From the NCBI GenBank assembly GCA_021813655.1, contig JAKAJU010000089.1, forward strand, positions 1 through 39,664: a DNA stretch of 39,664 nucleotides, written 5' to 3'. Source of the stretch: Chloroflexota bacterium (GTDB lineage: Bacteria > Chloroflexota > Limnocylindria > Limnocylindrales > CSP1-4). The position numbers and the translations under genes are program-made. Below are positions 21,399-26,924 of this stretch, one piece after another; within the stretch, counting starts at the first letter, position 1; every line of letters begins with the position of its first letter. Under the pieces are notes generated by a model. The model did no database searches. It saw only the letters and a program-made list of their open reading frames with translations, and had not been told where the DNA came from.

Positions 21399-21426
21399 TT
21401 GCACGGGAAGCCTCCCGTGCTATCCT
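21399..21426 (+). promoter_or_regulatory. Candidate promoter (TTGCAC-N16-TATCCT) whose spacer is a perfect inverted repeat GCACGGGA-agcc-TCCCGTGC
   Basis: 8-bp perfect arms (21401-21408/21413-21420) with -10-like TATCCT at 21421-21426, 45 nt before the leader ORF. Confidence 0.45.
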
Positions 21427-21471
21427 TCCCGCACCTTCGGGCCGCGAGCCGGTCCGGACCATGGAGGCACC

Positions 21472-21660
21472 GTGGGACTCTTCAGCGGTCGCGACACCCG
21501 CCGGGTCGCCGTCGTCATCACGACGGACGGCCGGCGCGTGCACGTGCCCGTCGAGGACCGGCGCTCCTTCGACGTATCCATCCTCGGCATCCGCAGCCTT
21601 GCCCTCTTCCTTATCGGGCTCATTCGGAGCCCTCGGCGAGAGTCTGGAGGACCGCGGTAG
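21472..21660 (+). CDS. Candidate ilv operon leader peptide (62 aa)
   Basis: GTG start preceded by GGAGG; ...SILGIRSLALFLIGLIRS... has 9 Ile/Leu in codons 37-51; its 3' end overlaps the antiterminator arm. Confidence 0.6.
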   Translation: MGLFSGRDTRRVAVVITTDGRRVHVPVEDRRSFDVSILGIRSLALFLIGLIRSPRRESGGPR

Positions 21661-21719
21661 CGCTGGGCGCGACCAAGGACGGAGACCTGCAGGACCCTCG
21701 CCGAAGCGGCGGGGGTCTT
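21633..21719 (+). promoter_or_regulatory. Candidate transcription attenuator (mutually exclusive antiterminator/terminator stems)
   Basis: TCGGCGAGAGTC (21633-21644) complements GACCCTCGCCGA (21693-21704) except one A/C mismatch; the same downstream arm is the 5' half of the terminator stem. Confidence 0.65.
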
Positions 21720-21727
21720 CTCATTCC
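21691..21727 (+). terminator. Intrinsic-terminator-like hairpin upstream of ilvB
   Basis: AGGACCCTCGCCG-aag-CGGCGGGGGTCTT stem (with G-U pairs) followed by CTCATT; T tract is weak but it is one of the few AT-richer spots here. Confidence 0.6.
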
Positions 21728-21733
21728 CGGGTC

Positions 21734-21787
21734 GGAGCGGTCGCGCGGCGGCCGGATCGACTGGAAGGAGCGGTCGCGCGGCGGCCG
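21734..21787 (+). repeat. Two copies of a 21-bp direct repeat GGAGCGGTCGCGCGGCGGCCG, 33 bp apart
   Basis: Identical copies at 21734-21754 and 21767-21787, in the ilvB untranslated leader after the terminator. Confidence 0.85.
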
Positions 21788-21839
21788 CGGAGATGCGATC
21801 GAACGGTCGGGGTGACGGCCGGCGATGGAGGACCGAACG

Positions 21840-23687
21840 ATGACGATCACGAAGGGCGCGAGTCCCCGCGGGAGCGTGCACTCGCACGTGCCCGACGCGG
21901 GGACCACGGCCGCGGACGCGATCGAGAAGGCGCGTCGCGACATGCTCCACCAGGGGCGCATCACGAAGCGGACGCGGATCGGCGCGGACGTCGTCTGCGA
22001 GGCGCTCCTCCGGCAGGGCGTGGACGTCCTGTTCGGCTACCCGGGAGGCGTCGTCCTGCCGCTCTACGACGTCCTCGGCGACTACCCCGAGATCCGACAC
22101 ATCCTCGTCCGCCACGAGCAGGGCGCCGCCCATGCGGCCGACGGGTACGCCCGCGCGACGGGCAAGGTGGGCGTGTGCCTCGGGACGTCCGGCCCGGGCG
22201 CCACGAACCTCGTGACGGGCATCGCCACCGCCCAGCTCGACTCGGTCCCCATGGTCGCGATCACCGGCAATGTCCCGGGCGCGCTCATCGGGAAGGACGC
22301 CTTCCAGGAGATCGACATCACCGGCATCACCCTGCCGATGACGAAGCACAACTACCTCGTCCGTACCGCCGACGAGCTTCCGGCGGTCTTCGCCGAGGCG
22401 TTCCACATCGCGCGCAGCGGCCGTCCGGGTCCGGTCCACATCGACATCACGAAGGACGCCCTGCAGGCGGAGACGCGGGCGACGCACCCGGACCACGACG
22501 CCGTCCTCGCGGCCCTCCCCGGCTTCCGTCCGACGCTCGACGGCCATCCGCGGCAGCTCAAGCTCGTGGCGCAGGAGATCGCGCGCGCCAAGCGGCCGCT
22601 CATCCTCGCCGGCCACGGGATCCTCATCGCCGAGGCCTGGGACGAGCTCCGCGAGCTGGCGGAGAAGGCGCAGATCCCCGTGACGTGGACGCTCCTCGGG
22701 ATCGGCGCGATGGACGAGACGCACCCTCTCGCCTACGGCTACATGGGGATGCACGGCTGGAAGCACGTGAACCGGGCGATCCAGTCGGCCGACCTCCTCA
22801 TCGCCCTCGGCATGCGCTTCGACGACCGGGTCACCGGCAACGTGCGAACCTACGCGCCGCACGCCCGGATCGTCCACGTGGACATCGACCCGGCCGAGAT
22901 CGGCAAGAACGTCGCCGTGGACGTCCCCGTCGTCGGCGACGTGAAGCGCGTCCTGGCCGCGCTCCTGCCTCTCGTCGCACCCGTGGACCACGAGACGCGC
23001 GCCGCCTACGCGGAGCAGCTCGCCGAATGGCGCCGCGAGTCCGAGGGAAGCAGCTGGCACGGCTCGGGGATGTGGCGCAACGGGCTCCTGTCCGCCGACT
23101 ACGTCATCGAGCGGATCGGCGCGGCGAACGACCACGACGCGACGATGGTCGCGGACGTCGGCCAGAACCAGATGTGGACGGCCCGGTATGCGGGCTACCG
23201 CAGGCCCCACAGCCACCTCTCGTCGGGGGGTCTCGGGACCATGGGCTACGGGATGCCCGCCGCGATGGGCGCGGCGCTCGGGCGCCCGGACAAGAAGACG
23301 TGGGCCGTCGTCGGCGACGGCGGCTTCCAGATGACGGTCCAGGAGCTCGCGACTCTCGTCCAGGACGACATCCCGGTGAAGATCGCGCTCCTCGACAACC
23401 ACAAGCTCGGGATGATCCGGCAGTGGCAGGAGCTCGTGTACGCGGGCAACTACCACTCGTCCGAGATGGTCGGTCCCGACTACCTCAAGCTCGCGGACGC
23501 CTACGGCATCCCGGCCTGGAAGGCGACGCGACCGGAGGAGGTGGATGCGGCCATCCACGCGGCGAACGCGGTGGATGGCCCGGCCCTCGTGTGGTTCGAG
23601 ATCGCGAGCGAGCAGAATGTCTTCCCGATGATGCCGGCCGGCAAGGGGCTCTCGGACCTCATCGAGGACCTGGAGGATCAGGAATGA
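21840..23687 (+). CDS. ilvB: Acetolactate synthase large subunit
   Basis: LFGYPGGVVLPLYDVL, VRHEQGAAHAADGYARATGKVGVCLGTSGPGATNLVTGIATA, GDGGFQMTVQELATLVQ; ATG at 21840 has GGAGG upstream (ORF also open from ATG 21825). Confidence 0.96.
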   Translation: MTITKGASPRGSVHSHVPDAGTTAADAIEKARRDMLHQGRITKRTRIGADVVCEALLRQGVDVLFGYPGGVVLPLYDVLGDYPEIRHILVRHEQGAAHAADGYARATGKVGVCLGTSGPGATNLVTGIATAQLDSVPMVAITGNVPGALIGKDAFQEIDITGITLPMTKHNYLVRTADELPAVFAEAFHIARSGRPGPVHIDITKDALQAETRATHPDHDAVLAALPGFRPTLDGHPRQLKLVAQEIARAKRPLILAGHGILIAEAWDELRELAEKAQIPVTWTLLGIGAMDETHPLAYGYMGMHGWKHVNRAIQSADLLIALGMRFDDRVTGNVRTYAPHARIVHVDIDPAEIGKNVAVDVPVVGDVKRVLAALLPLVAPVDHETRAAYAEQLAEWRRESEGSSWHGSGMWRNGLLSADYVIERIGAANDHDATMVADVGQNQMWTARYAGYRRPHSHLSSGGLGTMGYGMPAAMGAALGRPDKKTWAVVGDGGFQMTVQELATLVQDDIPVKIALLDNHKLGMIRQWQELVYAGNYHSSEMVGPDYLKLADAYGIPAWKATRPEEVDAAIHAANAVDGPALVWFEIASEQNVFPMMPAGKGLSDLIEDLEDQE

Positions 23688-24253
23688 GCGCCGACACGAC
23701 GGCCGCCCGGCCCGTCCCCGCGCGCGCCCTCCCCGGCTCCGGGGAGGTCCGTCGGCATCTCCTCATCGCGGTCGTCCAGAACCGCACCGGCGTCCTGAAC
23801 CGCGTCGCGAGCCTCATGCGCGCGCGCGACTTCAACATCGAGTCGCTCTCGGTGAGCCACACTGACAGCGACGACGTGAGCCGGATGACGATCTCGATCC
23901 ACGGCGACGAGTTCCATGTCGAGCAGGCGATCAAGCAGCTCTACCGGCTCGTGGACGTCCTCAAGGTCCAGGACGTGACCGACGAGCCGTCGGTGCAGCA
24001 CGAGCTCGCGCTCGTGAAGGTGCGCGCGACGGACCGCAACCGCGGCGAGATCGTCTCGATCGTCGAGATGTACCGCGGCCGCGTCGTGGACCTCGCGACC
24101 GAAGCGATCGTCGTGGAGGTGACCGGCACCGAGTCCGAGGTGGACGCGCTCATCGCGCTCCTCCGGGGGTTCGGCATCAAGGAGCTCGTCCGGACCGGGG
24201 CCGTCGTCATGGCCCGCGGTTCCCAATCGATCGAGGAGGCGACCAAGCGATGA
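23684..24253 (+). CDS. ilvN: Acetolactate synthase small subunit
   Basis: ACT domain [40 protein letters not shown] overlap with ilvB. Confidence 0.95.
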
Positions 24254-25299
24254 CCGCCCGGATGTACTACGACGTCGACGCCGACCCGGGCGCGCTCGCC
24301 GGCCAGAGAGTCGCCATCATCGGGTTCGGGAGCCAGGGCCATGCCCATGCCCTGAACCTCCACGAGTCGGGCGTCGACGTGATCGTTGGCCTCGCCCCGG
24401 CGAGCAAGAGCCGCGCGATCGCCGAGGAGGCGGGCCTGCGGGTCATGGACGTGGCGGATGCCGTCCGCGCCGCCGACGTCATCATGATGGCCGTCCCAGA
24501 CACGTCTCAGAAGGCGCTCTACGACGCGGAGATCGCGCCGAACCTCCGTCCCGGCCAGCTCCTCCTCTTCGCCCACGGCTTCACGATCCGCTTCGGCCAG
24601 ATCGTCCCGCCGGCCAGCGTCGACGTCGGGATGGTCGCACCCAAGGGCCCCGGCCACCTCGTCCGCTCCGTCTACCGCGACGGCGGCGGCGTGCCGGCAC
24701 TCTTCGCGGTCGAGCGCGACGCGAGCGGCACGGCCCGGGCGCGAACGCTCGCGTACGCCCGGGCGCTCGGATGCACCCGCGCGGGCGTCCTGGAGACGAC
24801 GTTCAAGGAGGAGACCGAGACCGACCTCTTCGGGGAGCAGGCCGTCCTCTGTGGCGGGACGGCGGCCCTGGTGAAGGCCGCATTCGAGACCCTCGTCGCG
24901 GCCGGCTATCAGCCCGAGCTCGCGTACTTCGAGACGATGCACGAGCTCAAGCTCATCGTGGACCTCATGTACCGCGGCGGGCTCGACTTCATGCGCTTCA
25001 GCGTGAGCGACACCGCCGAGTTCGGTGACTACGTCTCGGGCCCGCGGATCATCGACGACCGCGTCCGCGCGACGATGAGGCAGGTCCTCACCGAGATCCA
25101 GGACGGGACCTTCGCCGCCCGCTGGATCGAGGAGAACCGCTCCGGTCGTGCCGAGTTCGAGCGGATGCGCGAGGCCGAGAGCGGTCACCAGATCGAGCAG
25201 GTCGGCGCGGAGCTGCGGTCGAAGATGGCATTCCTCGACCCGGTGACCGTGAAGGCTGGCCAGGCACAGGCATCGGCGAAGGGGAGCGCAGGACGATGA
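24250..25299 (+). CDS. ilvC: Ketol-acid reductoisomerase
   Basis: [64 protein letters not shown] overlap with ilvN. Confidence 0.97.
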
Positions 25300-26924
25300 G
25301 CTCACCCACCTACGGCCCCGGCGTACCCGAGGGTCACGTACGGATCTTCGACACGACCCTGCGCGACGGCGAGCAGGCCCCCGGGGCGGGCCTCACCGTC
25401 GCCGAGAAGATCCAGGTCGCGCGGCAGCTCGTCCGGATGAAGGTGGACGTCATCGAGGCCGGCTTCCCGGCGGCGTCGCCCGGCGACTTCGAGGCCGTGC
25501 GGCGGATCGCCGAGGAGACCAAGGGCGTCGCGGTCGCGGCACTCGCCCGATGCAAGGACGGCGATCCCCAGCGCGCGGTCGAGGCGATCGGCGTGGCCGA
25601 GCGGCCGCACCTCCACGTCTTCATCGCCACGAGCGACATCCACCTCAAGCACAAGCTCCGCATCAGCCGCGATCAGGCCCTCGCCGAGGCCGCGCGCTGG
25701 GTCCGGTACGGCCGCGACACGCTCGGCCGCGACGCCGACGTGGAGTTCTCCGCCGAGGACGCCAGCCGGACCGACCCCGACTTCCTGCTCGCCGTCTACG
25801 CGGCGGCCGTCGAGGCCGGCGCCTCCACGCTGAACATCCCCGACACGGTCGGCTACGCGATCCCATCGGAGTTCGGCGGGCTCGTGGCCCGGGTGAAGGA
25901 TCTCGTGAAGGACGAGGCCATCGTCTCGGTCCACTGCCACAACGACCTCGGCCTCGCGACCGCGAACACGCTCGCCGCTGTCCAGGCCGGCGCGCGGCAG
26001 GTGGAGGTCACGGTGAACGGGCTCGGCGAGCGCGCCGGCAATGCCTCCCTCGAGGAGGTCGTCATGGCGCTGCGCACCCGTCCGACGCAGTTCCCGCAGC
26101 TCATCAGCAGCGTCGCAACCGAGCAGATCACGCCCGCGAGCCGCCTCGTGAGCCACCTGACCGGGTTCAGCATCCAGCCGAACAAGGCGGTCGTCGGCGC
26201 GAACGCCTTCGCGCACGAGTCCGGCATCCACCAGGACGGCGTGATCAAGAACCCGCTCACGTACGAGATCATGACCCCGCAGTCGGTGGGCCTGACCGGG
26301 AGCCAGCTGACGATCGGGAAGCTGTCCGGCCGGAAGGGGCTCCAGAAGAAGCTCCGCGACCTGGGCTACCACGTGGAGGGTCCGGAGCTCGACCTCGTCT
26401 ACCGCGAGGCGATCGGGCTCGCCGACCGGAAGAAGGACGTCACCGACGCCGATCTCATCGCGATCGTCGAGCAGCAAGTCGCCGAGGTGCCGGAGACGAT
26501 CGGCCTGGTGGACTGGGAGGTCAGCTCCGCCAAGGGCGGCGAGGCCCGCGGCCACGTGATCCTCTCGGCGGTGGGTGGCGAGCGGCACGGCAGCTCACGC
26601 GGCAACGGCCCGGTGGACGCGCTGTACGGCGCGGTGGACGCGGCCATCGGCCCCGTCCTCGGCTGGCACCCCGTCCTCACGAGCTACGAGATCCGCGCCG
26701 TCTCCGGCGGCGAGGACGCGCAGGGTCAGGTCGTCGTGCGCTGCCGGCGCTCCGTCGACGACGCGGCCCGCGCCGAGACCGTCACGGGCCACGGCCTGTC
26801 CACGAACATCGTGGAGGCGTCGCTCGAGGCGTATCTCATCGCCACGAACAAGCTGCATGCGATGGAGCTGGGCGACACGACATCGGTCATCCCGGCGCCG
26901 TCGGTCGACCAGGAGCTCCCGTGA
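25296..26924 (+). CDS. leuA: 2-isopropylmalate synthase
   Basis: [71 protein letters not shown]-terminal regulatory domain; ATGA overlap with ilvC. Confidence 0.96.

Follow-up and report, generated by a model that had tools for sequence, protein, structure and literature searches.

The question raised by this locus is how a branched-chain amino acid (BCAA) operon is controlled in a member of the Limnocylindrales (Chloroflexota), and what part is played by the reading frame of 62 codons that stands in front of ilvB. The window, by which we mean the whole stretch of 39,664 nucleotides that was analysed, carries the features described here on its forward strand. Based upon its sequence and those of its relatives, we propose that the region very probably controls the ilvBNC-leuA operon by ribosome-mediated transcription attenuation.

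The leader reading frame and its operon

The leader ORF (21472-21660) begins with GTG (21472-21474), ends with TAG (21658-21660) and is preceded by the Shine-Dalgarno sequence GGAGG (21463-21467); a GGAG-type motif is found at the matching place in most relatives. Codons 37-51 (21580-21624) specify ILGIRSLALFLIGLI, nine of the 15 residues being isoleucine or leucine. The ilvB gene (21825-23687; Pfam TPP_enzyme_N, TPP_enzyme_M and TPP_enzyme_C), encoding the large subunit of acetohydroxyacid synthase (AHAS) and predicted to be the first regulated gene, begins 164 nt downstream of the end of the leader ORF at 21660. Overlapping its stop codon is ilvN (23684-24253), the translation of which reads as an ACT-domain AHAS small subunit and which, by the known features of that family, is taken to be such. 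These are followed by genes for ketol-acid reductoisomerase (ilvC, 24250-25299; Pfam KARI_N and KARI_C) and 2-isopropylmalate synthase (leuA, 25296-26924; Pfam HMGL-like and LeuA_dimer). The order ilvB-ilvN-ilvC-leuA is that of a branched-chain biosynthesis operon. An MMPL-family gene (Pfam) lies upstream of the leader. Between the terminator described below and ilvB, a 33-nt unit occurs twice in tandem (21734-21799; 76% alike). A 930-amino acid open frame (21461-24253), which runs out of frame through the leader and ilvB and ends as ilvN, is probably an artefact of high GC content and not a gene.

A DNA search located the leader region in relatives, with ilvB downstream. A profile search (E < 1e-10) placed the leader ahead of ilvB in 79 members of this uncultured family, of which 107 genomes were covered; these represent 78 distinct loci, and no strong match was obtained outside the family. 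Approximately one quarter of the family genomes had no strong leader match, many of these being incomplete assemblies. A second leader copy elsewhere in the same genome was considered and rejected, as nearly all genomes gave one strong profile match and the arm pattern has no other exact copy. The homologous ORFs, all upstream of ilvB, are 61-77 codons long. When 60 distinct leaders, the set used for all of the pairing, gap and U-tract counts, were aligned as nucleotides, every internal ORF gap was a multiple of three (228/228), compared to only 12 of 235 gaps after the stop. All 78 leaders are followed by the same GC-rich hairpin, which in the 60 distinct ones comes 27-40 nt after the stop. 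The named relatives are nearly all Chloroflexota genomes (one is 'Candidatus Limnocylindrales'). It is from these relatives that we assign the window to the Limnocylindrales. One record labelled Deltaproteobacteria (L126) carries the same leader and is probably misnamed or mis-binned.

By eye and by comparison with relatives, a likely promoter was located at 21399-21426, with a -35 box TTGCAC (21399-21404), a 16-nt spacer and a -10 box TATCCT (21421-21426), from which transcription would start near 21433. A strict consensus promoter scan of the window did not report a leader promoter. At the corresponding place, 33 of the 60 distinct loci possess boxes of the TTGCG/TTGAC and TAGACT/TACACT type separated by 16-18 nt (strict pattern). 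In L066, L067, L081, L105, L023 and L075 about 10 nt separate the end of the -10 box from the start codon of the leader, which would leave a 5' UTR of 3-4 nt; the message would thus be nearly leaderless, and in these six the leader ORF is probably borne on a leaderless message. Other members of the family, unlike this group, have a 5' UTR of at least 32 nt. A perfect 8-bp inverted repeat, GCACGGGA-AGCC-TCCCGTGC (21401-21420), lies between the -35 and -10 boxes; it was not seen in a relative of the same genus (L002), and may represent an operator or else mark where the message of the upstream gene ends.

Exclusive stems and control codons

Two stems would compete downstream of the Ile/Leu run. 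The 5' arm of the antiterminator (region 2, 21630-21644) contains TCGGCGAGAGTC (21633-21644), which pairs at 11 of 12 positions with GACCCTCGCCGA (21693-21704); the CCC preceding it (from 21630) belongs to a weak local hairpin, CCCTC/GAGAG. The downstream sequence (region 3, 21693-21704) is shared, serving both as 3' arm of the antiterminator and as 5' arm of the terminator, in which GACCCTCGCCG (21693-21703) forms 11 pairs with CGGCGGGGGTC (region 4, 21707-21717) around an AAG loop. Region 4 and the weak U-tract TTCTCATT (21718-21725) that follows it together span 21707-21725. Since both stems use the 5' arm of the terminator, they are mutually exclusive. The terminator hairpin is present in the minimum-energy structure predicted by RNAfold. 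The ORF, its GGAGG, the Ile/Leu run, the arm coordinates and the pairings given in the earlier note, among them the terminator-like hairpin with a 3-nt loop, are correct to the base.

Among the 60 sequences, 98.6% of terminator cells are paired, with three pairs changed on both sides, and 94.4% of antiterminator cells are paired, as opposed to 41-60% in slid controls. The antiterminator pair formed by columns 85 and 169 has changed from C-G to U-A in four sequences, including the window and members of another genus. As column 169 lies outside the terminator helix, the antiterminator seems to be under selection of its own. The control region of the leader showed no further conserved RNA structure. 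In the window the tail following the hairpin (TCTTCTCATT) is a poor U-tract, which accounts for the failure of a strict terminator scan to report this hairpin; at least six T residues occur in 8 nt at 43 of the 60 distinct loci, and at least five in 55. The family-wide conservation, the frame-keeping gaps and pairings above those of the slid controls place the ORF, arm and terminator beyond chance.

The control-codon region of the window (codons 35-51, 21574-21624) contains GTA (V35), CTT (L43 and L47) and ATT (I51) in addition to other Ile and Leu codons. Codon statistics were compiled for the part of the leader after a conserved VP motif, without correction for the relatedness of the genomes and with the ilvB genes as background. 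CTT makes up 34.9% of leader Leu codons compared to 2.3% in ilvB (odds ratio 23), ATT 56.2% of Ile codons compared to 1.4% (odds ratio 91), and GTA 48.7% of Val codons compared to 0.4% (odds ratio 229). Codons ending in A or T account for 49.5% of those for Leu, Ile and Val and for 10.6% of those for other residues in the same stretch, so the bias is not one of general AT-richness. At the first control site 41 of 47 Val codons are GTA, and at the last 54 of 57 Ile codons are ATT. Among the Leu, Ile and Val codons, 349 of the 708 that fall at -26 to -5 relative to the arm are rare ones, compared to 41 of the 500 that lie further upstream. The control codons are specifically the rare CTT, ATT and GTA, with valine included beside isoleucine and leucine. 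An early Val run (codons 12-16) was rejected as main sensor; it uses common Val codons and is situated too far upstream, ahead of the positions from which a stalled ribosome is predicted to bring about antitermination.

The effect of ribosome position was modelled by folding only the RNA ahead of the ribosome, with the transcript ended after region 3 and an assumed footprint of 13 nt from the start of the A-site codon. The mean probability of the antiterminator was approximately 0.74-0.85 with the A site at codons -23 to -6, 0.59 at -5, 0.08 at -4 and about 0 beyond, and it dropped to 0.2-0.35 further upstream. By this profile, the rare codons nearly coincide with the A-site positions from which a stalled ribosome would prevent termination, with a modest correlation at the level of single positions (Spearman 0.41). 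When the whole transcript was folded at equilibrium, the terminator prevailed for most positions of the ribosome, so that discrimination is confined to the truncated, co-transcriptional comparison. In the window, free RNA that ends after region 3 already favours the antiterminator (0.88), suggesting that basal read-through may be high there.

From what was computed, namely the homology, the conserved frame, the bias of the codons together with its register, the covarying stems that exclude each other and the operon context, we infer translation of the leader, stalling, termination and a response to amino acids, in agreement with the ilv leader-peptide attenuation first suggested for this site. 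The ribosome translating the leader would trail the RNA polymerase. A shortage of charged Val-, Leu- or Ile-tRNA would make it stall at one of the rare codons (GTA, CTT or ATT) that lie 5-26 codons upstream of the arm at 21633, leaving the arm free to pair with 21693-21704 once this has been made; the terminator would be blocked and transcription would proceed into ilvB. With charged tRNAs the ribosome would move beyond codon -4 and cover the arm while region 3 emerges, such that formation of the terminator (21693-21717) would end transcription. With weak codons chosen, the response should be sensitive. The earlier idea that stalling in the Ile/Leu run would free the arm is supported by the folding and the rare Ile and Leu codons, and needs amendment in that Val (GTA) is also a control codon.

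It had also been proposed that the arm would be hidden by a ribosome that has reached the stop codon. From the start of the arm to the stop is 24 nt in the window, and the proposal fits its genus; in relatives this distance reaches 39 nt, at which a ribosome at the stop would be mostly past the arm, so masking from the stop would be confined to short leaders and is not general. Probably the arm is covered during passage of the ribosome, or a 1:2 pairing acts in its stead. A candidate protector is the local hairpin CTCCC-GGC-GGGAG, found in most relatives, in which 91% of cells are paired with one double change and no clear support from covariation; it is poorly formed in the window. Pairing of the arm with the conserved CGC-TCG-CT (RSL) codons as region 1 was rejected, being 79.5% paired without convincing covariation. 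Synonymous shuffling of the control region made the pairing with the arm stronger, not weaker.

The N-terminal extension and other readings

Codons 2-27 (GLFSGRDTRRVAVVITTDGRRVHVPV, 21475-21552) form an N-terminal extension conserved at the protein level, written in ordinary codons and predicted to fold as a beta-hairpin (residues 12-16 and 22-26). Its core has a pN/pS of 0.53, as opposed to 0.98 in the linker that follows; GAC and GAT, and GGC and GGT, exchange freely at its near-invariant D and G residues, and its Leu and Val codon use is unbiased. It lies outside the predicted stalling window. No relative of the extension was found in Pfam or PDB. AlphaFold2 modelling of the leader peptide gave strands at 12-16 and 22-26 and a helix at 37-51 (mean pLDDT 61.8, in the 70s locally; pTM 0.29). 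Within the extension a possible RNA hairpin, GCCGTC/GACGGC (21508-21531), was observed; it is conserved, with compatible changes in some relatives, and a single association test gave p = 0.026, uncorrected for relatedness.

A sister family with genomes of about 1 Mb carries the CTTATT-arm-terminator module in every ilvB upstream region that is long enough, as CTTATTCGG in one and as CTTATTCAG in all others. Where its leader ORF could be read through, it has 37-40 codons and no N-terminal extension. A more distant relative within the class (L178) has a short BCAA-rich ORF and a terminator. As the sister family keeps the 3' module without it, the extension is specific to the family of the window, having been gained there or lost in the sister. 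The leader is unusually long, as the earlier note had remarked, and the comparison suggests that this length is not incidental and is due to the N-terminal extension, which is conserved separately. This raises the testable question of what an attenuator gains by retaining a front half that resembles a protein. Most likely, the extension influences when the ribosome or nascent chain arrives at the sensor, or how either behaves up to that point.

Three other readings of the region deserve attention. The ORF might be the gene of a small functional protein with its own ordinary terminator, ilvB being regulated separately; in favour of this are the conservation of the N-terminal 27 residues as protein, the beta-hairpin predicted with moderate local confidence, and the terminator after the stop. 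We nevertheless regard this as very improbable, given that the ORF contains an antiterminator arm with which its rare cognate codons are in register, that the arm covaries with a base outside the terminator helix, that the position before ilvB is constant, and that the sister family keeps the 3' module without the N-terminal part, none of which would be anticipated for an ordinary gene. Control of the terminator by a metabolite- or tRNA-binding RNA (riboswitch or T-box) without translation is scarcely credible in view of the conserved coding frame, the codon-specific bias, the lack of conserved extra RNA structure in the control region and the lack of an Rfam match in the window, even though a terminator/antiterminator switch exists and a T-box is present at another Chloroflexota locus (L207).

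The remaining reading is nested within attenuation: the leader might have a second role, with the nascent chain serving as sensor or arresting element, or with the peptide acting in trans once released. This is conceivable, if unlikely. The N-terminal part is under separate purifying selection and is family-specific, and the predicted hairpin would, given the known length of the ribosomal tunnel, be near its exit with the ribosome on the control codons; the structural prediction is weak, however, no known domain is homologous, and spacing or pausing would also explain the extra length, though not its sequence conservation. That the extension itself is a second, protein-level element, a nascent beta-hairpin that leaves the tunnel (or binds a partner) with the ribosome on the control codons and so adjusts stalling, or whose product acts in trans, is decidedly doubtful. 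If true, one leader would combine the sensing of tRNA charge with that of the nascent chain.

Relation to known leaders

Leader-peptide attenuation is thus the reading that we prefer. The run of cognate codons, the terminator and the exclusive antiterminator of such an attenuator were found, beside a conserved, putatively translated ORF and a candidate protector pairing, and the locus appears to be a variant of classical BCAA leader-peptide attenuation. Rfam covariance models for amino-acid leaders, ilvB motifs and T-boxes gave no match at gathering score in the window, and at a relaxed threshold only chance matches in the leader. In the literature searched, outside of which lay most subscription papers, no Chloroflexota ilvB leader attenuator is described; within that scope, the suggestion that it is undescribed in this lineage stands. 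Control of ilvB across the Chloroflexota looks patchy, with BCAA-rich ORFs and, in L207, a T-box. Unrelated, very BCAA-rich short ORFs were seen upstream of ilvB at L190, L203 and L214 (e.g. MFVPLVLLNLVLVVLLSLLVIIIGKEPARVGKAASTGW in L190).

The leader of Corynebacterium ilvBNC (ilvB-II motif; PMC10272879, PMC11857589) likewise has an Ile/Leu/Val-rich uORF before ilvB and an exclusive antiterminator and terminator, but its uORF is usually 15-17 codons long (10-24 overall), as opposed to 61-77 with a conserved N-terminal extension here. The ilvB-OMG and Leptospira ilvB motifs (PMC10272879) are also ilvB-linked RNA motifs with BCAA-rich uORFs, although their peptides are threonine-rich too and there is no Rfam-level match for the present leader. 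Leaders in Mycobacterium and Streptomyces (PMC1262725) resemble it in having short ORFs with Ile/Val/Leu runs and terminators before ilvB; in that survey, however, the terminator overlaps the runs of codons and no mode of regulation was settled upon, and codon substitutions in S. coelicolor were without effect.

With the enterobacterial ilvGMEDA, ilvBN and leu attenuators (PMC1183508) this leader would share the selection of a stem by stalling on cognate codons and, as in leu, rare leader codons. It differs in phylum, without Rfam-level relation, in using GTA, CTT and ATT together and confined to the predicted stalling window, and in that the arm lies within the ORF, its start being followed by the stop at a variable distance of 24-39 nt. 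A survey in 2013 suggested a gamma-proteobacterial origin for those amino-acid attenuator motifs that Rfam contained at the time (PMC3766115); the present locus would extend well-formed BCAA leader-peptide attenuation to the Limnocylindrales, by way of metagenome-assembled genomes. What appears novel is the identity of the rare codons with their confinement to the stalling window, and the conserved N-terminal extension, the principle being classical. With 60 sequences at codon resolution, rare cognate codons lying where stalling would free the antiterminator provide a natural test of the theory of codon choice in attenuation (PMC1183508).
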